In this document: positions 19,915-62,090 of the stretch, one piece after another
How positions within the stretch are numbered: the first letter of the stretch is position 1
Layout: the number at the start of each line of letters is the position of its first letter
Source: Fusarium oxysporum f. sp. lycopersici 4287
Taxonomy: Eukaryota; Ascomycota; Sordariomycetes; Hypocreales; Nectriaceae
Direction of reading: 5' to 3'
Assembly: GCF_000149955.1 (NCBI RefSeq)
Contig: NC_030990.1
Span: 1,116,001-1,180,000 of the forward strand
Length of the DNA: 64,000 nucleotides
Translations under genes and position numbers: made by a program
Notes under the pieces: generated by a model
The model's input: the letters and a program-made list of their open reading frames with translations, nothing else
Databases searched by the model: none
What the model was told of the DNA's origin: nothing

Positions 19915-22900
19915 ATGAGTACTTTACCGGTACTTAATATATCAAGCATAATTTTCCGTTATTCTGGCCTTGTCGGAAATCTCATAGCTATCTCTTCAGC
20001 AGCCCGTGTTCCGCCAGGAAGTCCCCCCTTGCGGTATATATATGATCAACTCCTTGCGATCCAGTCGGAATTACAAGATGGCCTCCTTTCTTTACAGGAG
20101 GAAAGAGCCCTATCGGCTGACAGAAACTTTACTACGATACTAAAATGCGCGAGAGCGTGTGCAAGGGACTGTGGTACTCTTCTTAAGGCTGCCGAGACAA
20201 ATCTCGAGAGAGAGACTCAAAATGGGCAAGGGGGACAGTTCCTGCAGTTAGTTGATCAGCTGTTCGTGCCTTCATATTTTGGGAATCTTCAAGACTCGAT
20301 CAATGAGTATACTCGACCAAGTACTCGCCACTTGGCGAAGTGAGTCAAACCAGTCTTCATTCTATTGATCCATACTAACATGGATAGCAACATCATATGC
20401 CATGTGCATGACCAATTGAGAGACATTGAAAACCGGTTAAGCGTTTCTCTGGGATGCAATGCTTTTGAAGAGCTCCAAAGGTCCACAGGCCTTGTTGACG
20501 CTCAACTCGGCCAAATTCCTTGCGGAACAGAGGCTTGGGATGAAGTCTGTGACAGACTGCAACACATATTGTTCAAACTTTACCACCTACAGACAGCAGT
20601 CCCAATGTTATGCGCCCTCAACTATAGCGAGAGATCACTTCGCCAGAGTAGGATCTCGACAGCTCTTAAGGGAACGTTCTCCTGGGTCTTTCAAGAACAA
20701 ACAGACGATGTCATCAATGCTCAATCCTCGTTGCGTCGCTGGCTCACTTCAGATCAGAGCCTTTTTTGGGTCACAGGCAAATCATGTTCAGGGAAATCGA
20801 CATTGATGAAATTTGTTTCTGAACATCAGGATACCCGGACCTTACTGCAGAAATGGGCTGGGCATAGGGAGCTATTGATCGTCAATCACTACTTTGATGC
20901 TATGGGTCTACCAATCCAGAGATCATTTGAGGGACTTCTGAGATCCCTCGTATTTGGAATTCTCAGTGCAAAGCCAAGTCTCTTGAAGAATTCGCCGTCG
21001 AGTCTTGTTTCAGCATCGAGCGCCCTGCCGGCAACTTTCAAATTCGGACATATATTCAGCTCCATAACGAAGAATGCTGTTCCAGTCAAAATGTGTTTCT
21101 TTATCGATGGGCTGGATGAATATGAGGGAGATCATGCAAGGCTTTGTCAACTGATAGAAGATGTGGCAGCCCTCTCCTATGCCAAAATCATTGTCTCTAG
21201 CAGACCACGGGGTGCATTTGAGGATTCATTCGGTAGTTCTACTGAAACCACACTATCTCTGGAAGAGGTCAATCGAGGTGATATCAACAAATACATCAAA
21301 TTTCATTTGGAGGGAAGCCCTTTGCAAAAGAATAAGGACTGTTCGAAGTATAAGGATCTTGATCTCGAGTCCCTCAGTGCTCAAGCACAGGGGGACTTCC
21401 TCTGGGCTGTTTTGGTAACTCGTTTTCTCCTTGAGGATCCGTCTCCTTTGGCTGATGCCTACAACGGAGCAGAAAATGTTGAAGACATCCCCCACAACTT
21501 ATCAGGCCTAGCAAAGATTGTGGCAGAATCCCCGAACTTACAGTGTTATGGAAAAGCTGCTGAGTATCTGACAATCGCTCGCGAAGCAAAACGATGCCTA
21601 GCTGCCGAAATTCTCTTCTTTCACAACCTCGACTTTGCCAATGATATGTACGCTTTTATGACACCAACGGACCTTTTATCGCCCCATGACGAAGATACAA
21701 AAGAACTACATCACCAGATTCGTCGTGACATCATGCAGACATGTAGAGGACTGCTGGAAGTTGTCGATGGCCAAGTTGTCTTCGTGCATCGAGCTGTTTT
21801 GGAATTGATACATTCCGAAGAGTTTTGTAACTTCTTACTCACAAAGGTTCGGAAAGGGTTCGATTCTGATCTCTCAGTCTTCAAAGCATCCGTTTCTTGG
21901 TTCAAGCGCAAACGTTTCAGGAGCGGCGAATTCGTCGACTTACAGCCAGAGCCTGCAGCGGTCAGTTTAACATATGTACAGAGCCTTTCAAAGTTTCATA
22001 AGAAATTAGGGAGTACCTTGCCGGATTTTCAGGATACATTCAATCACCCAGTCGACGTTTACTGGATGACAAAGGCTGTCAACATCCGAGGAGGCTTTCA
22101 CAACGTATGCAAGCACGAAAGATGGCTGGATGTTATCAAAGACTTGGGATATAGCGACGATACTGCAGTATCAGTTTCAGACCCAGTCAAGAAGCTGTAT
22201 AAGCGATGGCTTCATCCATACGAAGAGCACCTGCACCGAAAGAAGCTAGAAGAACACGACCCTATGAAAGATATTGAAGACCTTGTTGAGAGCTTGAGGA
22301 AGTGTCTTGAATACGCACGACGTTGCGATCAAAAGGAAAATACTGTCGCCACGACTTGGGCACTCCTTGACAACGTTGAAGAAAGTCTGTTGTCCATGAC
22401 CGCGAGGAATCAATTCAACATATCGGATGTATCTATGGCAAGGGGCATTTACCGTCATCTTGTGATTGAATCCGGTATCCAGAGATACATCGCGAACAAA
22501 CTCTGGGTTGATCCAGGATATTGTGATAACAAATATTCACAGAAGTACCGATCACCTCTATGTTCTGCGCTTGGAGCGGCACCACATAACCTTCATCCTG
22601 CGCATCTAAGTCCAGAGTCTATGGATAGATCACTCTTCAAATCTCTTCTTGCTCTTGGGCATGAGCCAAATAAGTTTCACCATACAGGGGAGACACCCTG
22701 GGTGTCTTTTGTGAATACCCATATTCCTAACACATTGTCCAATTCACCCCCGGGGCTCAACAAGATAAACATCAATTTGATAAATGAGATATCTATTCTC
22801 ATGCTTGAACATGGGGCCAGGCCAGGGGATCATGTCGAACTTCTAGACAAGAAATCGAGGACGTGGAAAGTTCCAATTTGGTTCAAGTTCCTTATGCTGG

Positions 22901-25404
22901 CCCATTGGGTACCGGCTTTTCAACAAGCCACGTTCGAACGTGTTTTCAGCATGATGTTGGAGAGAACCCCAGATATTCCAGATTCCAGAGCTTTACTGGA
23001 ACTCAAATCTGATGGCGAAACATATGAATGGATTCCTTTTCCATTATGGACAATCTGTGCTGACAATTTTGCACTACCTAACATCTCAGATTCTAGCCCA
23101 TCTGATGCTGGGTTTGTATTCAGGATATTTGTAGGAAGCTGTGAAAAGAATCTGAATAACTTGGAAGTATCTGAAAGGTCTCGAAAATATCTTTCGAGTT
23201 ACTTCCTTCCAGACTACCCGGAGCTTGGAAGACAAATACTGATGCTCATTCCCGGAAGTGACTCTAGGACGATAGGTTTCACAACAATCACCTCGGTCAC
23301 GCGGGACGGAAACACAGAGAGCATTAGTGGTCGAAATTCTACGGTTGCGACTTCAATTGAGCTTCCAGAAGGTATCGAAGTTGAATCTCGTAAAGAAGGT
23401 GCAATGTGCAATGGTGCGAGAGCAGAGGTGGATGCAATCATTGACGAAGTTGGCTCGATTCAGTCAATTGACGAGGACATTCAGTCACACAACAGCAGCA
23501 TTGCACGAACTCCAGGTATCATCGCCGCTGAGCGCCAAATTGGTGACTTGCTTTCCCGGCATCCGGATCTCCGCTTTATCATTGATGTATCCTCAGAACT
23601 TATGCCAAAGGAGAGGCTCGAGCGCAATATTCGGAGATCACTCAAGCATTTGTATCTGAAACTCAGAGAACAGACGGAAAAGCACATCGAAATCCAGGTT
23701 TTGACAACTCGAATGCTTAAAGGGCGAGGTTCAAGGACTAGAATCTCAAAAAGAACTGTCGATGGCGAGTTAGCATCCCCATCTCCAAGGAATAGCAACG
23801 AAGAAGACGAAGAAATCCGGCCGAGCTTCCGGAAGGATCGAGCTTATCTCAACAATTGGATATTAAAAACGGAACTGTCTGCGAGACCAGATGAAAAGCC
23901 TCAGCAGCCAGCAGATGCGGCTGATGATACCAAGCTGACAGAAAGTGACGACGACATGTGTGAAGAAAGAGAGAGTGATTCAGAAGAATTCCAAGCAGTT
24001 CAAGTCGCAGAAGAATTTCTCATGAAGGGACCTCCTTTTCAGGCGTTCTTGGCACATCTTGGACTCTCATTATTACCTGATACTCTCAGACAGGTCATGC
24101 AATTAGCTGCCTGGGATACCATTGAACTGATCAATACTCCGGCTGAAGTTTCAATTTCTGATCAAATCAAAACTTCCGTGGAGAAGCTGACCGGCAGCCC
24201 CTGGGATTGGTGGCCACTCAAACCGCCGGAGGTACCTTTGCGAAGGGGCTATGTACGAATGAACTGGGCTTGCGTGAGTTACTACGAGTATAAGACACTT
24301 TCTATGTAACCTCCTGACTAGAAATAGCATTGCGGTAAGCCGTTTTGGGTACATATTACTTCTTCTCAGGCACAAATTATTGAGAGAATGGTCAAGAACC
24401 CCACCACGTTCGCTGAAGACCATTGCAAGGCCACTCATGCCAGGCGAAATACCTTCCAGAGGGTCACGGCATGGTTCAAATGGAACTCTGGAACCCTTTT
24501 GCCTGTTTCGACTCCAGTATCCCAAGATAGTCAACAACCGTCTGGTGTGGGCGGCAATAACCGAATCCAACAGGGGGTCGCTACTACAGAGCAGAACAAC
24601 ATCCCGCCAGTGACTATTGATGATTTAAGGATCTTATTTGGAGTACCAATGGGGCTTAAGACGCTACATGTGATCCCAATCCCGGTCAATCAACCAGACA
24701 GCAACGTTTTTCCACAATTGAAGGCTGAGTATAGAAGAATGCGAGGCCGATGGAGAGCTTGGTTCTCTTTCTGGCAGCTCAGTCACTGCAATTTCGTTAA
24801 GGTAGGTGCATGTTCCTATGAAGTTTACATTCTCATATGTCAAATGCTTCAAATTGATCTTCCAACACATATCAATAACATGTTCTGGTAATATCCATTG
24901 ACAATTCATTAGTTTGAGAGCATTGCCCGTAACATTGTTGTTGCTTGTGGCCAAGATCTGCCAAAAGCGAGCGACCTGGACTACGATTATACACCAAAGC
25001 CACCTCAAGCATCAATACCACCTGTTCATCCACATATCTTTGAAGCTGCATTCAACAGCTGCACTGGGGGTAAATGCCGAAACCCCTCTCCCTTTCACGA
25101 CTGCTATGAATTTGAAGAAACGACCTACATAAAGCGAATTCCGAAGAAAAAGACACCACTTTCTCCGGGAGCGATTGACATGCCTATTTGGGGGCTCGAG
25201 GCCCGGCATTGCATCTCGTGCTTTCACGTCATAATATACCACTTGCTTATTCTGGTTCCTCCTTTTGTGTTGTGGGGATGGTGGATGAGTAGGCATCCCG
25301 ATGACATACAGAGCGCATCTGTTCCCATGACTATTGTTTTGGCAATGATTTCTATGTTTTGGAGTGCTACTGGAATTATGAAGCAATTTCGTGGCGAGCC
25401 ATAG
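19915..25404 (+). CDS. NACHT-type STAND NTPase (NLR-like) with C-terminal membrane region
   Basis: Four exons (19915-20339, 20388-24273, 24328-24801, 24913-25404) give 1758 residues with all phases consistent. An N-terminal helical domain of about 140 residues starts with a hydrophobic stretch, as in fungal STAND N-terminal domains. The NACHT NTPase has Walker A GKSCSGKSTL (about 272-281), Walker B FFIDGLDEY (about 379) and the sensor-like IIVSSRP (about 409). A winged-helix-like region (AEILFFHNLDFAND to VFVHRAVLELIHS) follows. A long middle part has no clear repeats; an acidic stretch lies near 1300. The C-terminal module has an NWACHCG cysteine motif and two hydrophobic helices (about 1695-1718 and 1732-1750). 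Fungal proteins of this class act in non-self recognition and programmed cell death; the specific role here is inferred. Intron 1 has a perfect TACTAAC branch site. Confidence 0.85.
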
Positions 25405-25667: not shown

Positions 25668-25757
25668 GGCCGCGTGGCCTAATGGCTAAGGCGCTAGATT
25701 TCGGTCTTCAGCAACTGATCCCTCTAGAGATTCCAGGTTCGACTCCTGGCGTGGTCG
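25668..25757 (+). tRNA. tRNA-Arg (anticodon TCG) with intron
   Basis: Acceptor stem GGCCGCG pairs with CGTGGTC, including two G.U pairs. The D arm, T arm (CCAGG TTCGACT CCTGG) and a 5-nt variable loop are normal. Anticodon stem CTAGA/TCTAG encloses TT-TCG-G. A 17-nt intron lies at the canonical position after base 37. The mature length is 73 nt with discriminator G. It reads CGA codons. Confidence 0.93.
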
Positions 25758-25869
25758 ATTGACACAGCTGATCCAGTTTCTTTTTGCGGTCCTCTGCTCC
25801 TGTAGGGAAGAGGAGCAATATATTTTTTTTTCACTTGATGCAAAATAAGAGATAGAATGAGCAAAAATG

Positions 25870-25943
25870 TGGTTCCGCCCGGGATCGAACCGGGGACCTT
25901 CTCGGTGTTAACGAGATGCCATAACCAACTAGACCACGGAACC
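25870..25943 (-). tRNA. tRNA-Val (anticodon AAC)
   Basis: 74 nt without intron. The acceptor stem is GGTTCCG/CGGAACC with discriminator A. The anticodon loop TTAACAC sits in stem TCTCG/CGAGA. T arm CCCGG TTCGATC CCGGG. It faces the Arg tRNA across 112 bp. Confidence 0.95.
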
Positions 25944-45116: not shown

Positions 45117-46104
45117 TTTGCGAAGTCAGCGTTTGTTTGGCGAAGAAGTTCGCTGCACAGAAGGAGATCGAAGGGGGAGGAGGGGGAGGGGTTCTGTCGT
45201 TTGCGCCGAGCGCACCTACAACCGCTGAAGTCGGTCGCAAAGAGAGAAGAAGTGAATTTTGAAAGGAAGGATTCAGAAATAAGCTTGTGGAATGCTAAAG
45301 AAGCGAAATAATCTGCCAAAACGGCTTGGTTCCACAATGTGAGGAAGGGGGAAGAAGTTTTGGACGTTGATGGATGGCGGCTTTTCGGTGGAGTTTCTCC
45401 CCGCTGCCGGCGTCATGAAGACGAACCTAGAACGCCTGGCGGGGCGGGCTTAACGGGCAAGGCTTCAGGGCTTTCAACCTTTGTGATAGGTTAGAATGCC
45501 CCTGTAAGCGATCGCAGCTGGGCGCAAATCAGCAATGCCTAGCGTGACTACGCGCCTAAAGTTGGGGAATCTTTATCAATCGCCACCGACAGTGTGTGTT
45601 GCTGCATTGGAGCCTAGCCTCGGATGCGAAAGGGAACAGATGGTCTATTATTATTGTGCTACGTATCAGCAATCCAAGCCGAAGTTTTCGTACTTTTGAT
45701 CACCAGACTATTGTGGTACTCTTGAAGCTTAGAGTAATATATCGCTTACTTCCTACTACCTTAGGTAGGGAGTTAACGAAAGTTACCTACTTAGGTACTA
45801 GGTATTCAAAGGTCCCTTGGGTGGGTAAGAATGGTAGATATTACCATGCACAGCAATATTTGGGCTGCCTTGGCCAATCGGAGATCGGTTAGTTGCATAT
45901 CAAGATCTCGGCCCCACTTCTTCATTGTTGGAACCTCAGACAAAGTTATCACAGTCAACAGACAAACCAAACTCATATTTAAAAAGCACAACTCATAATA
46001 TTTAAAGCACGTCCAGCGACATCTCGTGGCCCGACAGCACGACGCGGCACTCATTGTGAACTGACCACGGCTGGTGCGCGCCTTGCGCCTAGATTTAGCC
46101 CATT
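45117..46104. promoter_or_regulatory. Divergent upstream region PPT1/ESS2
   Basis: About 1 kb between two divergent start codons. No gene recognised. Around 45765-45810 there are repeated short TACCTTAGGTA/TACTTAGGTA-like words of unknown meaning. Confidence 0.4.
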
Positions 46105-47457
46105 ATGGACTCATCAGGGTCAGGGACCTCAAATGCGCTGGTACGCAAGCGGACAGACACAGACTTGATGCCCCCGCCTCCTCAAGCCAAGAAGATAAAA
46201 CGACCCAAGAAGGTACTCGACGAAGATACCTACACAGAAGCACTGTCACAAATCATCGCCCGGGACTTCTTCCCAGGACTTCTACAAACTGAGATACAGC
46301 AAGAATACCTGGATGCGCTCGAGTCAAAGGATTCTGCCTGGATCTCAAGTGCAGGCCGAAGATTGCAACATGTTATGACACCAGGGCGCCGAAATGCACC
46401 TCTCTCATCACAGGCAAATTCTTTCACTGCTGGTGATCGGACACCTTCAACATATGGCGGTGATACGCCAGCTTCAGTTACCTCTAATGTTCCGGATCCG
46501 CAACCACGGCTAGGAGCCAACATGAGCCTGACAAAATTTCAAGATACTTACACGAGCGAGGATAATGAAAGCTTTTATAAGCTTGTTGACAAACAGAATC
46601 AGAAAAAGGCTGACAAATATGCCTGGCTTTGGCGCGGTAACAAACTACCGTCAAAGCAAATGATCAAACAGAAAGAGGTTGAGGATCGACTGAGCCAAAC
46701 CCGAAGCCTCATAGATGACGGATTCAAGAAGGATTTGCTGGCCATCAAGGACAAAGATGACCGTCCAGCTCGCCCAGATTCCTGGAATGCCAACCCTCGA
46801 AACAGTTTGATGTTCAGACCTGACGGGTTAGAGGATGGTGTCCTCACTGTTTCTCAGAAGGCCGAGGAATCTTCAAAGATGGCTCCAAAGTCAATAGTCT
46901 ACGAGAACACGAGAATGCCACAACCGCGCGTCACACCGAGGCCACCATCTCCGACCATGTCAGCGGTGCGAGACGCTATTGCCGGCAAGCCTCGGAAAGA
47001 TGACCGAGACTCCAGCATCGTTAGCGGAGGCGAGACACCAAGAGTTAATGGGTATGCTTTTGTGGACGACGAGGATGATGAAGATGAGCCAATCCTCCCT
47101 GCTCCTATTATCAATCTAGGCCCGGGAGATGCAGCTCCAAACCCTTTCCGCTTACAAGAGCAACGTGACAGAGAAAGTCTACACGAACGCATGGTGGAGA
47201 GGATATCTCAGTCGAAGAAGGAATCCTCAAGGAATGGACTTACAGGGAGAGTTGACAAGACGCCGGTTCCAAAGTTTCCGAGTAGTCCTCGGGTCAATGG
47301 TGGACTTACACCTGCAGCACAAAGGCTTTGGAGTAAGATTGGCACACCTGGACGTGGATCAAGTGGGAGCTCATTTGGAAATTCCAAGCCCATGACTCCC
47401 AGAGGATCACTTTTGAGATCAGTGAAGAGACCTGGCTCAACATCTGGAAAGAAGTAA
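46105..47457 (+). CDS. ESS2/DGCR14 family splicing-associated nuclear protein
   Basis: 450 residues in one exon. The family (ESS2 in animals, Bis1 in fission yeast) associates with the late spliceosome. Typical marks are VLDEDTYTEALSQIIARDFFPGL near the start, SLTKFQDTYTSEDNESFYKL, the KADKYAWLW block and RVNGYAFVDDE. The region PILPAPIINLGPGDAAPNPFRLQEQRDRE in the second half and a Lys/Arg/Ser/Gly-rich tail also fit. The start at 46105 precedes conserved sequence directly. The single long exon contrasts with the intron-rich neighbours. Confidence 0.9.
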   Translation: MDSSGSGTSNALVRKRTDTDLMPPPPQAKKIKRPKKVLDEDTYTEALSQIIARDFFPGLLQTEIQQEYLDALESKDSAWISSAGRRLQHVMTPGRRNAPLSSQANSFTAGDRTPSTYGGDTPASVTSNVPDPQPRLGANMSLTKFQDTYTSEDNESFYKLVDKQNQKKADKYAWLWRGNKLPSKQMIKQKEVEDRLSQTRSLIDDGFKKDLLAIKDKDDRPARPDSWNANPRNSLMFRPDGLEDGVLTVSQKAEESSKMAPKSIVYENTRMPQPRVTPRPPSPTMSAVRDAIAGKPRKDDRDSSIVSGGETPRVNGYAFVDDEDDEDEPILPAPIINLGPGDAAPNPFRLQEQRDRESLHERMVERISQSKKESSRNGLTGRVDKTPVPKFPSSPRVNGGLTPAAQRLWSKIGTPGRGSSGSSFGNSKPMTPRGSLLRSVKRPGSTSGKK

Positions 47458-47953
47458 CGGTTGAAATGAGATACCGCGGTGACAGGATTTGGGGCTTCTC
47501 TTACTCCTTCCATGTCTCCCGGAGTGCATTCATGGACTGACAATTGCTCCAATGTTTCATTGTTCTCACATGACCTGTCACTATCCTCGTCGTTTTTTAA
47601 TAGCATGGTGTTGTGTTGGCGCTACATACTTTTCACGATACCTGCCGCGGCTCAAAAGAGAAGCGCAACCATTCTGGATTATTTACAGGATAAAGCAAAT
47701 AGAATTAAAATTCAGATCAGCATCTTCTTACTTTGGCCGAATAATGTGTCTGGTTCCTACACCTCTCAGATGAGGCCATTTACAAGGAACCCGCTTAGTT
47801 GCATGACCCATCGATTAGATCATGGACTTTTTTCCATTGAACCTTGGAACCACCAACCCACCAAACCTAGCTGGCAGCCAACGCCAGCAAGCCAGACAAT
47901 ATCAATCACCTCCATTCAATGTGCTTCTGGCCCAAGGAGGCCGTATAAGCCCG
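47458..47953. other. Spacer between ESS2 and COQ8
   Basis: About 500 bp. An in-frame ATG at 47822 extends the COQ8 frame upstream, but no conserved coding sequence lies before 47954. Confidence 0.5.
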
Positions 47954-50134
47954 ATGAGGTTCGTCGACTTCGCAATTGACCTTGCGGCAGTGCTCAATGC
48001 CTCTCGAGGTGTCGCCGCTAAGCATGTCGCGCTCCGAGGTCGCCAGATCGATACCTACAGTCGAACTTCGAGTGTTGCCGCAGCATTGAGGAAGCGAAAT
48101 GCTCAAAGGAGCTCACCGACGGGGGAGAAAGCACAGAATGCTGCGGGCGCGAGCGATGAGGTTGTATACGAGCAAGCTGCACCGGCGGCACGAGAGAAGA
48201 AACCTATAACCGAGACACCGAAACAAAATGCTCCGCCTGAAGTGACGAGAACCGAAAGAGCACCCTTCAATAGCCCGATCCCCAATTTCAGACCGAGCCC
48301 ACAGCAACAGGCTACGTCGGAACCGGCGAAAGAGGATGATCTTGATCTACCACCTGGGATCGACGTCAATATCTTCCATACCGCGAGAGGTTCCAAAGTC
48401 CTCGACTCTCTACGAAAGCAAGGTCGACCTGGAGCACCTCCTGCACGCCCCGGAGTTGGGGGTCCTGTGAAGCCACATCCCATGCGAGACTGGCCTCCGC
48501 GCCCACCACCCCTCGAAGAGAGCTATGAGGAGGAGCCCGTAAAACCTCAAGAGCCTGTGTTCAAGCCAGTGGAACCCGTAGAGTCTGTAGAGCCAGCTGA
48601 GAAGGAACCCCTGGTCGAGAAGTTTGTGCAGAAGAAACAGTTGGAGGAGAAGCCCGTCGAGCAGAAACCGGTGGAGGAAGGCTCCGTGCCTGAACCAGAA
48701 AAGGCCACTCCGTTAGCCCCTACAGCCGACAAAAAGATCGACGAGGATGTCATTCAAGCTGCCAGAGAGATTGCTGGGGAGACAACAACGCCCTCAGAGA
48801 CACCCTATGCTTTACGAGAATCCAAGGTCCCCTCGTCTCGTATCAGCCGAATCTGGAACTATAGTGGCCTTGCAGCAGGTATGTTGGGAGGCGCCATGAC
48901 CGAAGGCTTCAGTCGAGCCTTTGGCGGTGGTGGCGAGGGATCTGTCCTCCTGAGCGAGAAGAACATGGAGCGTCTGGTTGCAAAGCTCTCGCGCATGCGT
49001 GGTGCTGCTTTGAAGCTTGGCCAGATGATGAGTTTCCAGGATACCAAGATGCTACCTGCCCCCATCCAACAGGTGCTCCAGCGTGTTCAGGATCGCGCTG
49101 ATTACATGCCTGCCTGGCAGCGTGATCGTGTATTAGTAGCAAACCTTGGTCCTGAGTGGAGAGAGCTCTTCAGCAATTTTGAGGAGAAGCCTATCGCTGC
49201 TGCTTCTATTGGGCAGGTTCACAAGGCCACATTAAAGAACGGCAAGCGAGTCGCTGTCAAGATCCAATTCCCTGGTGTTGCTGACTCGATCAACTCGGAC
49301 CTCGATAACCTAAGCATTCTCCTCACAGCCACCAAGCTACTCCCCAAAGGTCTATACCTCAACAAAACCATCGCCAATGCGCGATTAGAGCTTGGCTGGG
49401 AATGTGACTACGAGCGAGAGCTTCAGTGCGCTCAACGCTACAGGGAGCTTCTCGGGTCAAGCGAGAAGGATGTTTTTATGGTGCCAAATGTTTATCCTGA
49501 GGCATCGGGTAAGCAAGTCTTGACGATGGACTTCATGGATGGTATCGGCGTGACTCGCATCACCTCTTTTACCCAGGAGCAGCGTGACTGGATCGGTACA
49601 CAGATTCTTCGCCTCTGTCTCCGCGAGATCACCGAGTTCCGTTTCATGCAAACGGACCCAAACTGGACAAATTTCCTCTACAACGCAGATGTCAACAAGC
49701 TGGAGCTGCTCGATTTTGGCGCTTCTCGCGAATATCCTGACGAGTTCGTCACACAATATGTGCAACTTCTCGCTGCGGCTTCACGATCCGACAAGGCTGC
49801 TGTAAAGGAGTTGTCAGAGAGCTTAGGTTACCTGACCGGCCATGAGAGTCGCACCATGGTTGAGGCACATACAAAGTCTGTCCTTACACTCGCGGAGCCT
49901 TTCCTTGCTAGCGCGCCCGATATTTATGACTTTAAAGACCAGACTATCACAGAGCGTGTCAAAGCTCTCATCCCTGTTATGCTTCACGAGCGACTGGCAC
50001 CCCCACCAGAAGAGACATACAGTCTGCACCGAAAGCTTAGCGGTGCGTTCCTCCTGTGTGCCAAATTGGGTAGCAAGGTCCCTTGTAAGTCCATGTTTGA
50101 GGAGGCACTTGCCAAGGGGGGATATAGTAGGTGA
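47954..50134 (+). CDS. COQ8: COQ8/ABC1 atypical kinase (ubiquinone biosynthesis)
   Basis: 726 residues from the preferred start at 47954; an in-frame ATG at 47822 would give 770. COQ8 is a mitochondrial UbiB-family ATPase/kinase-like protein that supports the coenzyme Q biosynthetic complex. The N-terminus (AAVLNASRGVAAKHVALR) matches the family and may act in mitochondrial import. A long Pro/Glu-rich linker follows. The UbiB core has the KxGQ helix (MRGAALKLGQMMSFQD, about residue 353) and the Ala-rich nucleotide loop AAASIGQVH in place of a Gly-rich loop. VAVKIQFPGV carries the ATP Lys, and DPNWTNFLY and LLDFGASREY follow. Unusually for the area, it has no intron. Confidence 0.93.
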   Translation: MRFVDFAIDLAAVLNASRGVAAKHVALRGRQIDTYSRTSSVAAALRKRNAQRSSPTGEKAQNAAGASDEVVYEQAAPAAREKKPITETPKQNAPPEVTRTERAPFNSPIPNFRPSPQQQATSEPAKEDDLDLPPGIDVNIFHTARGSKVLDSLRKQGRPGAPPARPGVGGPVKPHPMRDWPPRPPPLEESYEEEPVKPQEPVFKPVEPVESVEPAEKEPLVEKFVQKKQLEEKPVEQKPVEEGSVPEPEKATPLAPTADKKIDEDVIQAAREIAGETTTPSETPYALRESKVPSSRISRIWNYSGLAAGMLGGAMTEGFSRAFGGGGEGSVLLSEKNMERLVAKLSRMRGAALKLGQMMSFQDTKMLPAPIQQVLQRVQDRADYMPAWQRDRVLVANLGPEWRELFSNFEEKPIAAASIGQVHKATLKNGKRVAVKIQFPGVADSINSDLDNLSILLTATKLLPKGLYLNKTIANARLELGWECDYERELQCAQRYRELLGSSEKDVFMVPNVYPEASGKQVLTMDFMDGIGVTRITSFTQEQRDWIGTQILRLCLREITEFRFMQTDPNWTNFLYNADVNKLELLDFGASREYPDEFVTQYVQLLAAASRSDKAAVKELSESLGYLTGHESRTMVEAHTKSVLTLAEPFLASAPDIYDFKDQTITERVKALIPVMLHERLAPPPEETYSLHRKLSGAFLLCAKLGSKVPCKSMFEEALAKGGYSR

Positions 50135-55958: not shown

Positions 55959-57709
55959 CTATGACGCCTTGGAAAAGGGGAGTAGTCTTCTCATCTTGCC
56001 ACTTCTCGCCATCTTTTTTATCTCTTTCTCATTATTTCTCTTCAGTTTCCCAACGACCTCATCGTGATCCTTCTTTATGGCTTCAACCTCAGCCTCATGC
56101 TGTTGCTTCAACTAGACAAGATGTTAGTGTACTTGATGGGCTCAGAAAGAGAGCGAGTGGTACCTGGCCTGCAATAAGCTTTGCGCTTCCAGATTCGATT
56201 GCCTGTTGACGAGACCTTTGGATGGTGAAAAGTACATCTTCATGTGAGAAGCCTGTTTCATTTTGCTGAAAGCCTTTCATCATTGTCTGTTGAATCACCT
56301 TGGAGTAGATGAGTGACCAGTGTCCGATTTCGAGCGCACCTTGGCGCATCAACTGAATTTCGTTTAGAAAGTCCTATAAATATCAGTTCTGTATGCAGCT
56401 AAAGAGAATATGGGACAGCTTACCAATGTATCTCCAAAGGAAAGCCCTTCGGAAATTCCTGTGGCTATTTCCTTGGACTCGGAACAACTCTCGAGAAATG
56501 ATTGCATTTTGGCGAGCATCTCGTTGTGATGAATTGCAGCATTACGGAGACAATCTATAATCCCATGAAGTAGCAACTGAACGGGCTGCAAGACTTCAAT
56601 ACATTGTTTCTGTATCCGGCAGTCAGTATTGTGTAACTGGGATTGTAACAGGGGCATTGTACCAGTTCATTAGCTTGCGTCGAAAGCTTCTGAATGTCAA
56701 CCTCGGCCTCCTCCTTACGTCGCCTATACTCCTGACCTCTCTCAAGCTGATCTTGCATGTTTCTCTGCGCTGATTGGAGATCGTTGCTCGCCCAGAGGTT
56801 GAGTATCCACGTAGCGGCCATCTGACCTCCAGCCATCAGCATCTTTCCGCCGATGTCTGCAGAACCAGCAGACTGGATGATAGTTCCAATTTGATTTGTT
56901 AATTTGTTCTTTTGCCTGGAAAGATCCTCTCGCCGGGCTCGAGCGGCATCTTCGTTTGCCTGAGCCCTGTCTTGGTTGTAGATCTGGTCGTCTATCTCGG
57001 TCTTCAGAGTACCGATCTTTTTGTTTGTTGCGTTCTCTTCCTGGTTCATGATGTCTATTACCATTACTAAGACTGTACAGTTTGTAAGAATCCTGTGGTA
57101 ACTGACCTTTGGTCTTGCTGATACGACGACTGAATTCGTCAACGGAAGCACGCCAGGCTTGGAGACTTTTGTCAAGTTCATCGCATTGTTTTCTGCATAC
57201 TTCCGTTGCGTTTGTGAGCTTCCTGAGATGCCTATCGAAAGACGCTTTCTCGCCGGGAACACCAAAAGTACTTTGTAGTGCGTTCAGCTAGTAACCAAGA
57301 GGTTAGCATTAATACGCCATGAGCTGGTTCGTTACTCTTACCGTTCCCGTATCCTGTATCATGGACTTGGTCTTCATGTAGATACTGTAGAAAGCTCCAT
57401 GTGTTTCCACCAATTTGTCGAGCCCCATATGGCAATGCTCAGCCAGGGCTGTAGACAGATTATCGCTCCTGATGATAGTGTTGGCATTCAAGTTTCCGAG
57501 ACCAGAGTGCTTATTGACATGGACGAAGTTTCTTACCCTGGGAAGCCATCCGCGTCTACTAGAAAGACAGACGTGGCATTGCTTGTCGTAGAAATGTAGA
57601 GGCACAATTGAAGCTTCTGAGTAAGCAATTCGGCTCTGATCAAAGGCTCTAACAGATTATCACGAGGCCCTTGAGACATCTCGGCCGGGAACCGAACTAA
57701 GCTGCCCAT
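55959..57709 (-). CDS. Coiled-coil protein with central hydrophobic segment (A)
   Basis: Seven exons (57709-57537, 57468-57342, 57287-57107, 57054-56663, 56609-56424, 56373-56164, 56111-55959) give 473 residues. I traced all phases and the total is divisible by three. After about 100 residues the protein is almost entirely helical and heptad-like, rich in Gln, Lys, Glu and Asn. The coil is broken near residues 240-275 by a Gly/Ala/Met-rich hydrophobic stretch (GGKMLMAGGQMAA with ILNLW). It then resumes as a second coiled coil to a Lys/Arg-rich C-terminus. No signal peptide. The layout of two long coils around one membrane-compatible hairpin recalls alpha-helical pore formers of the ClyA/binary-toxin type, but no sequence homology is claimed. 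It is head-to-head with the second coiled-coil gene. Function unknown. Confidence 0.7.
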
Positions 57710-58299
57710 GTTGGAGCTGGCGATATCAGATGTTCCTAAGGGATTGAGTACAACAGACAGAAAGTTTAAAGGCGATTAAACATCCATCGATAGAATTTCA
57801 AAATCTAAAAGAAACAGCTTTATCCCAGAAGCACCGCGCCGACTGATCGACTGAAGAGGGGCTACCCATGTCCAAGAAGTACCTCAATGTATATGTGCCA
57901 ACGTTTCATCTGCACCTGTCCCTTACTAGGGAATTCCATATGCAAACTAAGGTCAGTTTCAACCCTCGCTGAGCCTATCCCCGCTCACGATAAAAGCCAA
58001 AGCTTCGTTCAGAGACAGGGGTCGACATATGCATGGTGGGCGCCCGCATTTTAGTTTTCAGCTCTTCCCAAAGGAGTACCTGATAGGTTATACAAGGACA
58101 CCATGCATGCGGCATTGTCGTGGTTGCTTGTAGGAGAGAGCCTGTCGAGTCTTAATAGTTCTTAATAGTGTATGGATTTATCAGGCTCGGCATCGCAGTT
58201 CAAGAATTGCCGAGTAGTTTCAACTCCTACCCTCAATCCTGGGATTGGATTCAATCCTGCAATTGTATCCCATTCTAAAATTTGGCCTCAATAACCATA
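57710..58299. promoter_or_regulatory. Divergent promoter of the coiled-coil pair
   Basis: 590 bp between the start codons at 57709 (minus) and 58300 (plus). No coding sequence. The head-to-head arrangement suggests shared control of both genes. Confidence 0.45.
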
Positions 58300-59587
58300 A
58301 TGTCAACCTCGGGAGGAATCTCATTATCCCAGTTCCAGGCTCGCTTGACTGTGCTGCAATCACAGCACCAGTCCCTCAAAGCAGCCGACTTAGAAATGCG
58401 AGCCACACAATCCGAACGATGCCGTTCTTCACTTGAGAAAGCCGTCAAGAGCCTATTCCAAGTCATAAATCTCGTTCGCAAACACGATAAACGTCTAGTT
58501 GCATGGCACGACCGCAGTCCACATCTCAAATCGGCTCTTCGTTTAATCGGCATTGATCGACGAACAGAACATACCGTGAACAAGACTACGGCGAAACTCA
58601 AGAATGGTGTACATAAAGTCGAGACACAGTTTGAATACGCCGGGCAAGTCATAGGAGAGAGTATCGATGATACTACACGCTTCCAGAAGGACTTTTCGCA
58701 AATTAGTCGGTCTGGAGTTGAGGAGAACCTTCAAGCTATGAGAGCTGCTGAAGCTGAGCTGAAGCAGGAGTTAGAGGACCTCAAATATCAGATCCAGAAT
58801 CAGGATGTTGAGTGTTCTGGGGCAATGGCAGAGTTGAGGCAGCAGATTCAACGGCTTGAGGAGCTCACGGCAGATCATGACTCTGCAAGAGCCTGGAAAA
58901 ATACCTGGGGAGCGGTGAGGATAGCGATCTGTGCTCAATAAATACTTGATCTCTTGCTAACTTTCCGGTCTTTAGGTCACGGTACTTGCTGCAGCGGGGG
59001 CTTTTGCAATGCCATTTGTTGGTATTTCGGTAGGAATAGTAGCCGGTGTCAAAACTCTGTAAGTCATGCAAACTACAGTCTATGGTCCCCGTTGACACAG
59101 TGATGCCACACGCAGTATGAATTCCGAACAGCAAGAAGCACTCAGGGTGCAAAAAGAACAACACGAGCTTCTTGTCCAAAGTCACGACTCAGAACTGAAA
59201 TCGCTTGAACTCCAAATGGCACAATCAGGCCGTCACCACGACAGTTGCGCCTATTACATGGATCAAATCAAGCAGATCCAAAGCGCAAACTTGACTATTC
59301 GTCAAGAATCAAGCAGAGCGTTCAAGACCCTTTGCGAAGTGCAGATGGCACTGGAGAAGGCGAGGCTCAACATCTTTGAGATATCACAGGAACTGCAGGA
59401 ATGTCAATATGAGAAGACTAGGCGCGGGATGGCGGCAAGATTGAATGGGATCTTGCAGAATATTCTGGAATTTCCTGCAAAGGCGAAGTTGAAGGCCGTT
59501 GATCAGAAGCTCATTGAGCAGGCTACGAGTGGGATAAGGGCTATTTCTGGTGCAACAGCTGAGGTTATGGCCATTGTGGGTGAGTAA
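58300..59587 (+). CDS. Coiled-coil protein with central hydrophobic segment (B)
   Basis: Three exons (58300-58914, 58976-59058, 59116-59587) give 389 residues. The first 205 residues form a long amphipathic coiled coil. An 83-nt exon then encodes nearly all of a hydrophobic Gly/Ala-rich segment, TVLAAAGAFAMPFVGISVG and onwards, able to span a membrane. A second coiled coil of about 155 residues follows, with a short hydrophobic Ala/Ile-rich end. No signal peptide. The same coil-hydrophobic-coil plan is found in its divergent neighbour, though the sequences are not obviously alike. The likely role, inferred only, is a membrane-inserting or membrane-tethering partner. The ATG at 58300 is used; the upstream in-frame TTG is not a start. 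Confidence 0.72.
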
Positions 59588-60074
59588 GACAATGGCCTGG
59601 TTCTAAACTCTCATCAATTGCACTTCTCGTGAGGAGTTCGAGTGAAACTGAAAGCTGTCTTAACATTTGTGTTTGTTTTCAAGTATGTCTGCCTGATCGG
59701 CACAAATGATACCCTATTGGAAAAGTAGCATCCTGTACCTTGCATGGGTGCTTGCACAACAGCCATGTCTCTCTATCTGATGAAACTAGGCTTGGATTGG
59801 TCTATCAGTCTCACGAGGTCTTCGAAGCCCCAGCCTGCTTTTCAGCGAGATCTTTGTCTTTGAAATGCCACTACATATTCATGTCGCTAGCATCTTCGAA
59901 GCCATAGCTGAATGCTGGCCCTCATAAAGGGCCAACAGCCAAAAATAGGAACTTGGCACAAGAGCATGCAAGACTTAAATCGGACTTTAATTTGGTACTG
60001 CAGTGCCCATTGATTTAGGCTTTTACCAGGGGCAGTATTGTCTATCAATCGCAAGATTGCGTTGCCAACTCAAA
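59588..60074. other. Spacer between coiled-coil gene B and the hydrolase-patatin gene
   Basis: About 490 bp, both flanking genes plus strand. Similar words CTTCGAAGCC occur at about 59820 and 59896. No gene seen. Confidence 0.45.
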
Positions 60075-62090
60075 ATGGCATCGTATAATGGTCGGACGAT
60101 CCATTCTCTTACAAAGGGGAACAACGCAACGGATCAAGCATCTGCAGAGTAAGCCGCACTCGATGTCATCAAACCACATGCTAACAAATTATTCTTAGTA
60201 TAATCGCTCTTCATGGTCTGGGAGGCGATTGGAATCGTACCTGGAGCTCGTTCGGATACTGCTGGCTCAAACACACTCTCGTACCCAAGTTCCCATCATG
60301 CAGAATCCTCTCTCTCAACTATCCAGATATGCTCTCTACTTTGTCAGCACACCCTCCTGACATAAACGGTCTGATTCAGGATATCCTCAGAGACCGCCGT
60401 CAAGAGAACCGCTCAAAGTCACCGATTATCTTCCTCGGCCATAGTTTTGGTGGCACTGTTCTCAAGCAGGTGTATGTTGCTACACACCCTTCCAACACAG
60501 ATGACCCAGACTACAAAGCCCTTCATACCCAGAGTCGTGGCTATGTGTTCTTTGGGACAATCCATAAAGACAGGGATATGAGTAGGGCTAAGCTTGAAGT
60601 CCCAGAGTTTTGGAGAGCTTTGAGTCGCGGAGCTTCAGGTACATTGGGCGGTCACTCTCATGAGTTGGAAAAGGCAATGTATACCACCTTTCGTGTTAAC
60701 CATGCATTTCGTCGTCTCGGTGGAGAGAACCTCCTCATCAATTGCTTCTATGAAACCAAGGGGCCCGGCGGACTGAGTGTCAGTGAATCTTGTCACTCAT
60801 GTTCCAGATCTGAAGCTAACATAAGCCCAGAGACGTGTTCTTATTACTCAGGAAGAGTCAACTCTGGTCGCCCGTCCTGTTCCTACCATGCCCTTGGATC
60901 TCGACCACCAGTCCCTCGTTTGCTTCAAAAGTCCACGAGATGAAAACCTCGTTCGTGTCCTCGACGCTCTCGATTCGTTCATGATTCGAGCTATGGACGT
61001 CGAAACTCGACTACATAGGTCGAGTGCTCCTGAATCTCGAGGTCTATGTCTTTTGTCACTTGATGGAGGTGGTGTCAAGGGATTATTTAGCATCATCATC
61101 ATTGATCGGCTGATGCAGGAGACACGACGCCTTGAAGGCCCTGGTGCAGGACATAAAAAGCCCTGCGACTATTTCGACCTTATTGGCGGCACAAGTACAG
61201 GAGGTTTGCTAGCAATCATGCTAGGTCGGCTTCAGATGGACACTCAGCTCTGTATTCAAGCTTACAAGTCTCTGTCCAAGGAAGTGTTTTCTAGGAAGTT
61301 CAAGGTGCCCTTCCTGGAGAACTTCCGCAAGGCCAGTAATGTTGCTCTAAGCTGGCCATGGTTTGATGGCGATAAACTCAAAGAAGCCGTTTGTCGTACC
61401 GTCAAAGAGAACCTTCTTCCCAGTGACTCGGCTATGCTGAGGCAAAGTGGCTGTACAGTGGAGGACCTAACTCTCATCACTGACATGAAGTCTGCCACGT
61501 ACTCTTTCGTCTGCGCCGTGCCTAAGTACGAGGAAAAGGTGAGACGAATTCGATCATATGAACCCCTCGACCAACAAACAAATGCTCCAGCTGAAAGGTT
61601 CAAGATCTGGGAAGCTGCACGAGCAACCTCAGCAGCGCCAATGTATTTCCCACACATAGAAGCAGGTGGCGTTTCTTACTTCGATGGTGGACTTGAGAGT
61701 AACAACCCCGTGATTGAAGTTATCGAAGAAGCCAAGCAAGAGTTCCCGGATGATAAGATCTCCACCGTGATTAGTGTTGGTACTGGTGCGTACCAAGCCT
61801 CAGACGCAAGCGCAGGACTTACGGGTCTCATGAACTACATGATCAACATGGCCACAAGCACAGAGAAGCATCACAAAGCTGTTCTGGAAGACCCGCGATT
61901 TGCAGATATCAGAAAGGAAGGGTACTTTCGACTCAACGGGACACTTGAACTTGGAGCCATTGACCTCGCCGCTGTGGAACGCATGGATGAGATTGAACGT
62001 CTGGCCGAGGCCTATCTGAGTTCCAATGAGGGTCAACAACAAATCGGCATGTGTGCTGAGCGTCTAGTTGAGAGGGCGAAGCACCAGTGA
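60075..62090 (+). CDS. Alpha/beta-hydrolase - patatin phospholipase fusion
   Basis: Exons 60075-60148, 60199-60778 and 60831-62090 give 637 residues with agreeing phases. Domain 1 (about 25-235) is an alpha/beta hydrolase: IIALHGLGGDWNRTW is the oxyanion region and LGHSFGGTVL the nucleophile elbow (Ser near 105). It resembles the lipase-like SesB-type domain found at the N-terminus of some fungal NLRs. Domain 2 (about 290-500) is a patatin-like phospholipase A with DGGGVKG (oxyanion), GGTSTGG (catalytic Ser near 339) and FDGGLESNNP (catalytic Asp near 502). Both active sites look intact. In fungal NLRs a patatin domain is usually followed by NB-ARC and TPR repeats; here the protein stops just after it. 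A split into two genes is possible if intron 2 (60779-60830) is not used. Confidence 0.82.

Follow-up and report, generated by a model that had tools for sequence, protein, structure and literature searches.

We analysed a 64,000-nucleotide stretch of the genome of Fusarium oxysporum f. sp. lycopersici 4287 (contig NC_030990.1; hereafter the window), in which the block at 55,959-62,090 holds three intact genes: A on the minus strand, and B and C on the plus strand. A preliminary description of this DNA had proposed that two coiled-coil proteins and an enzyme with two hydrolase domains act here together. The block is real, conserved and clade-specific. Gene models assembled exon by exon from window DNA give the following layout.

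55959..57709, minus strand: gene A, 473 residues, seven exons; long-helix protein (exon structure, orthologues, orthologue model)
57710..58299, no strand: A-B intergenic region, 590 bp between divergent start codons (from coordinates)
58300..59587, plus strand: gene B, 389 residues, three exons; coiled coil, membrane-grade segment, coiled coil
60075..62090, plus strand: gene C, 637 residues, three exons; alpha/beta hydrolase plus patatin (Pfam, orthologues)

The exons of A lie, on the minus strand, at 57537-57709, 57342-57468, 57107-57287, 56663-57054, 56424-56609, 56164-56373 and 55959-56111; those of B at 58300-58914, 58976-59058 and 59116-59587; and those of C at 60075-60148, 60199-60778 and 60831-62090. 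All ten introns (six in A, two in B and two in C) are of the GT-AG type and span 50-68 nt by their coordinates. Splicing of A is supported by a 473-residue F. coicis protein (P0001; 94% identity, full length), with support for B from P0027 (99.5% over residues 1-387) and P0012 (97.7% over residues 1-388), and for C from P0011, a 637-residue F. oxysporum cluster at 98% identity. Identity of the three window proteins to F. oxysporum proteins is 98-99.5% (P0002 over aligned columns, P0027 and P0011). Because database proteins match the spliced models, the frames are not products of chance, and both the intact reading frames and the close spacing described beforehand are upheld; 487 bp separate the stop codon of B from the start of C on the same strand. 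Judged from its position only, the gap between A and B is a possible shared promoter. An alternative four-exon form of B, ending at 59709, is likewise open. An inverted repeat (55983-56006 and 59397-59420; 24 nt, 83%) links coding stretches within the two genes A and B; we regard it as a chance match.

The hydrolase C and the coiled-coil proteins A and B

By its sequence, C looks clearly like a lipid hydrolase, for which an action on membranes or lipids is likely. Its patatin domain passes the Pfam cut-off (PF01734; E 4.8e-28; 99.1 bits against 27.7), and its N-terminal half carries the nucleophile motif of an alpha/beta hydrolase while matching Abhydrolase_6 weakly (22.5 bits, below the cut-off of 26.3).

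60437..60454, plus strand: GHSFGG, alpha/beta-hydrolase nucleophile motif of C, residues 105-110
61053..61721, plus strand: patatin domain of C, residues 293-515 (Pfam), with DGGGVKG at 296, GTSTG at 338 and DGG at 503

The patatin motifs are retained by nearly all of 51 relatives of C (DGGG in 50/51, GxSxG in 49/51, the Asp motif in 47/51). The hydrolase motif occurs in 29/51; 20 of the 22 relatives without it are proteins of 369-440 residues, the other two being P0055 (485 residues) and P0057 (675 residues). Apart from the Fusarium-named proteins and three further near-identical ones, relatives share 36-51% identity with C and none has B attached; they include stand-alone full-length proteins (36-48% identity, 612-675 residues) from, among others, Lecanora helva and Vezdaea aestivalis. 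The genome itself yields 25 patatin/hydrolase matches to C, its own exons counted, with more distant relatives among them. A bacterial search with two patterns, both from the patatin half, left the hydrolase half uncovered in the best 80 of 248 loci, where the match starts at residue 240 in one case, at 254 in another and at 260 or later in the remaining 78. We ruled out that C is a fungal NOD-like receptor (NLR), since C shows no NACHT domain, NB-ARC domain or C-terminal repeats at a threshold of E <= 5, and neither do P0011 and P0026 at E <= 1.

Neither A nor B reaches a Pfam or NCBIfam cut-off, and in PHROGs nothing was found for either that is better than E 0.019. The feature that sets B apart is a hydrophobic segment of membrane grade lying between two coiled-coil stretches and nearly all encoded by a single exon.

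58976..59058, plus strand: exon 2 of B, encoding almost the entire hydrophobic segment (residues 206-233)

The segment is conserved, with a Kyte-Doolittle value over the best 19 residues of 2.02-2.14 in 18/18 B sequences, and a membrane or lipid action of B is fairly likely. A fold model of B (of P0009, a sequence that lacks 32 residues at the N-terminus, from a two-sequence alignment) reached a predicted local distance difference test score (pLDDT) of 40.9 and a predicted template modelling score (pTM) of 0.25, so that its structural matches, which in those listed fall mainly over residues 250-357, mean little; no ClyA-family chain was among the 50 matches listed for this low-confidence model, and phmmer gave no convincing link between B and the PDB.

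One explanation of B that dispenses with a pore is that it is related, though lacking the GTPase, to the trunk-paddle part of bacterial dynamin-like proteins of the LeoBC type and serves as a membrane tether or curvature protein (LeoBC is a bacterial dynamin-like protein according to the consulted part of PMC4159319). The C-terminal half of the PADLOC LeoBC model matches B of the window at E 1.1e-4, P0009 at 1.2e-5 and P0026 at 7.2e-9, and the top alignment keeps the order of helix, hydrophobic segment and helix. A hidden Markov model (HMM) of LeoBC-like proteins, drawn from 20 loci (19/292 genomes, of the phylum of an Okeania record) of which 13 were retained after filtering on length or coverage, ranked 18/18 B sequences (3.8-19.2 bits) higher than each of the 60 controls consisting of A, reversed and shuffled sequences (best 1.7). 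In a wider decoy set of 2640 open reading frames (ORFs) plus their reversals, however, reversed ORFs scored 24.3, 16.6 and 11.4 bits, and one unrelated ORF in forward orientation scored 13.2 bits; P0026 (19.2 bits) alone among the B sequences passes 11.4. Moreover, reversed B matches JetC, another coiled-coil model, at 2.5e-4, and a B profile found no match better than E 0.01 across 591 bacterial genomes. A LeoBC search of the Fusarium genome itself listed two matches to the GTPase part, with B, whose exons are split there, not among them; and B has no GTPase domain match, the LeoBC matches starting at profile positions 290-291, past the GTPase part. On these comparisons a relationship between LeoBC and B is unproven, and we consider this explanation highly improbable.

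A is a different protein. Homology between A and B is undetectable (BLASTP E 4.1; hhalign probability 0.2), and we rejected the two as paralogues. Weak matches of A below the cut-off are mainly to coiled-coil families, and phmmer and hmmsearch gave no convincing link between A and the PDB. A low-confidence model of an A orthologue has two helices of more than 100 residues, a Gly/Ala-rich tip in mid-chain and flanking helices; its nearest structural neighbours are AhlB, ClyA and AhlC, with AhlB and ClyA reached in Foldseek at E 4-6 only. The model thereby resembles these chains rather than simple rods, and a ClyA/AhlC-like fold of A is suggested. In the comparison with ClyA-type folds that had been proposed for both coiled-coil proteins, the likeness of A is thus tentative, and the matches listed for the low-confidence model of B include no such chain.

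56786..56890, minus strand: tip between the predicted long helices of A, residues 216-250; Gly/Ala/Met-rich, weakly hydrophobic

The tip is the least conserved block of A. Its Kyte-Doolittle value (best 19 residues) is 0.89-1.08 in 8/8 sequences, with one to three charged residues that in P0006 and P0007 include arginines. Less hydrophobic partner components occur in the ClyA family, for which reason the weak tip lowers the case for membership of that family and not the likeness to it. A membrane or lipid action of A is uncertain. Hence the plan said to be shared by the two proteins survives for B, which has its membrane-grade segment, and fails for A; by eye, no signal peptide was noticed in either, in keeping with the earlier reading.

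Gene boundaries, range and surroundings

Public databases contain 15 proteins in which B and C are joined (P0012-P0014, P0016-P0018 and P0020-P0028), several of them named 'calcium-independent phospholipase'. This raises the alternative that B and C are one gene of about 1000 residues, whose coiled-coil and anchor N-terminus places or restrains a double lipase, with A as divergent partner. B stands at the N-terminus in 15/18 Fusarium-named C clusters, B is left directly after MA(I/V)V in 13/15 fusion models, and in the window the stop codon of B overlaps a donor-like sequence, which keeps the fusion alive as a reading.

59580..59587, plus strand: overlap of the B stop codon with the splice-donor-like GTGAGTAA; exit point of 13/15 public B-C fusion models

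Against it, the junctions of the 15 models, sorted by eye, are of eight kinds: GGxNxTDQ (4), VAKLRYQF (2), ALHG (1), (G/E)DIIALHG (2), GGDWN (2), LQHCVDSE (1), EPELGL (1) and A(R/H)PPDING (2). Four models (P0022, P0025, P0027 and P0028) skip part of the hydrolase start, and P0023, with the LQHCVDSE junction, translates the first exon of C in a different frame. The stand-alone 637-residue C clusters are also the larger (47 and 58 members against 1-5 per fused cluster), and the start of C (MASYNG...IHS) is similar by eye to that of a stand-alone Lecanora protein. We therefore regard B and C as more likely two genes and a single gene as unlikely; the 15 fused proteins are probably mis-fused models of B and C with inconsistent junctions, and the locus probably flags a mis-fusion in public annotation under the name 'calcium-independent phospholipase' at about 1000 residues.

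The range of the three genes is narrow. The searches for relatives of A and C took the best 7,997 candidates, so that distant relatives may be missed. At E <= 1e-3, A has at least seven clusters, all from Fusarium, and B has three, two of them named Fusarium, besides the 15 fused models reached through C. Orthologues of A above 75% identity come from F. coicis, F. oxysporum, F. subglutinans, F. proliferatum, F. verticillioides, F. beomiforme and Fusarium sp. DS 682; those of C form 18 Fusarium-named clusters, the farthest being F. beomiforme at 88%, with nothing between 51% and 88% among the matches listed. Among these matches, named orthologues of A, B and C above 75% belong to Fusarium only, and on sequence grounds A and B are so far known from close Fusarium relatives. 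The species concerned represent the oxysporum and fujikuroi complexes plus near relatives. Between species, identity is 80-99% for A and 87-100% for B. Such a shared range fits a joint gain of the three genes.

In a search of the same genome, which scores best candidates only, all six A matches and 3/4 B matches fell on the genes' own exons, the fourth B match having E 2.7; paralogues of A or B were on this basis rejected, and both genes look single-copy. The neighbourhood is kept wherever contigs or locus tags show it: A lies beside the B-C pair in F. coicis and likewise in F. beomiforme, while in DS 682 A lies beside B, C of DS 682 not appearing by name among the matches.

To the left of the block lie genes for an ES2 nuclear protein (46099-47454, plus strand; 1.2e-119) and an ABC1 atypical kinase (47819-50131, plus strand; 5.2e-69), neighbours that suggest a core chromosome region. 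Immediately to the right of the window, the 9.9 kb at contig positions 1180001-1189900 contain only one open frame of at least 170 residues, and 3/9 of the 1-kb stretches have 40-41% G+C. At L024:5194-8224 (plus strand), two overlapping frames match Zn2Cys6 (1.1e-6) and, as a second domain, that of a fungal transcription factor (1.2e-11); the frames are probably one spliced regulator gene. Within the window, a stop-to-stop frame of 1321 codons at 20344-24306 (plus strand) joins NPHP3_N (7.3e-18) to ARID/BRIGHT (7.5e-16), with NACHT weak and below cut-off; this NLR-type NTPase region lies about 32 kb from the block, and its pairing with a DNA-binding ARID/BRIGHT domain looks unusual. A tRNA-Val gene stands at 25668-25757 (plus strand), and a tRNA at 25869-25943 (minus strand), called with a four-base anticodon, may contain an intron missed by the program.

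Possible joint function

Our tentative preference, held at well short of even confidence, is that A, B and C form a cytosolic module, specific to this clade of Fusarium, that acts on membranes. In such a module, C would be a two-domain acyl/ester hydrolase cutting membrane lipids, B its membrane-inserting partner by way of a hydrophobic stretch of some 28 residues flanked by coiled coils, and A a soluble, ClyA/AhlC-like long-helix protein assembling with B. On a trigger, the A-B pair would dock on or perforate a membrane that C would then degrade or remodel, and the result would be local lysis, damage to a compartment or death of the cell. The interaction of the three proteins, the pore or docking activity, the trigger and the outcome are all inferred. 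Two points weigh against this picture: the tip of A offers no hydrophobic head or tongue in any of the eight sequences, and adjacency among such close Fusarium species is weak evidence.

Nearly as likely is that the three are neighbours without a joint function. C would then be an enzyme of lipid signalling or turnover from a fungal hydrolase-patatin family, supplying for example fatty acids for oxylipins, and A and B unrelated clade-specific coiled coils (scaffold, tether or cytoskeletal) held together by ordinary synteny. The stand-alone relatives of C in L. helva and V. aestivalis favour this view, as does the undetectable homology of A and B; the comparison is moreover limited to close Fusarium species, where synteny is the rule. 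In addition, the fungal patatin enzyme PLP1 of Trichoderma takes part in conidiation and in the production of oxylipins triggered by injury (PMC10714772, as far as the consulted part goes). Set against these are the close orthologues of all three genes in the same Fusarium groups, as if jointly gained, and the low-confidence model of A, which fits pore formers and not rods. The earlier proposal that the three genes act together is supported in part: the block is conserved and C looks like a lipid hydrolase; the joint function itself is plausible and unproven.

A more specific version of the module, in which A and B make up an intracellular pore system of two ClyA-type components in a eukaryote, encoded with its own two-domain lipase C as a cell-death or defence cassette, appears to us improbable. 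Regardless of which reading applies, the locus defines two coiled-coil families that are conserved, apparently single-copy and without a name so far; the genus concerned includes crop pathogens.

Comparison with known systems

LeoBC-type dynamin-like proteins share with B the order of helix, hydrophobic paddle and helix and a weak HMM similarity; B differs in having no GTPase domain, and some decoys score higher. Closest to C are the fungal hydrolase-patatin enzymes, such as P0032 of L. helva (48%), which have its domain order over nearly the full length, whereas Fusarium alone yielded A and B. Fungal patatin/SesB-like NLRs include PLP-1 of N. crassa, which we take to be a patatin NLR. Both effector domain types of C occur in such receptors according to the consulted parts of PMC9815663 and PMC12881547, in agreement with the earlier statement that patatin and lipase-like domains serve as NLR effectors. 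C differs in joining the two effector-type domains in one chain without NACHT, NB-ARC or repeats.

The alpha-helical pore-forming toxins of the ClyA family (ClyA; AhlABC, Hbl and Nhe; YaxAB/XaxAB) resemble the locus in the hairpin of the A model and in the presence of two candidate components side by side. A and B differ from them in being fungal, intron-bearing and divergently transcribed rather than in an operon, in the barely hydrophobic tip of a low-confidence A model, and in the adjoining lipase; pore formation by A and B is putative. Neither has a sequence match to curated pore-former families or solved chains in Pfam, NCBIfam or the PDB, and known family members can share as little as 6-24% identity with one another (PMC6602965, consulted part). 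Among the papers listed, in part 10 and 8 out of far more, titles and abstract starts showed no fungal ClyA-like protein, and six locus tags of A, B and C orthologues or neighbours gave no literature mention. A review of fungal pore formers treats HeLo/HELL domains and gasdermins, the word ClyA being absent from the part consulted; further sources, likewise consulted in part, are PMC6162564 and PMC5935710. A ClyA-type pair in Fusarium would, if true, constitute a new pore class for fungal cell biology, tied to patatin effectors; and such a cassette would pair perforation with lipid destruction, unlike the known HeLo, gasdermin and NLR effectors of fungi.

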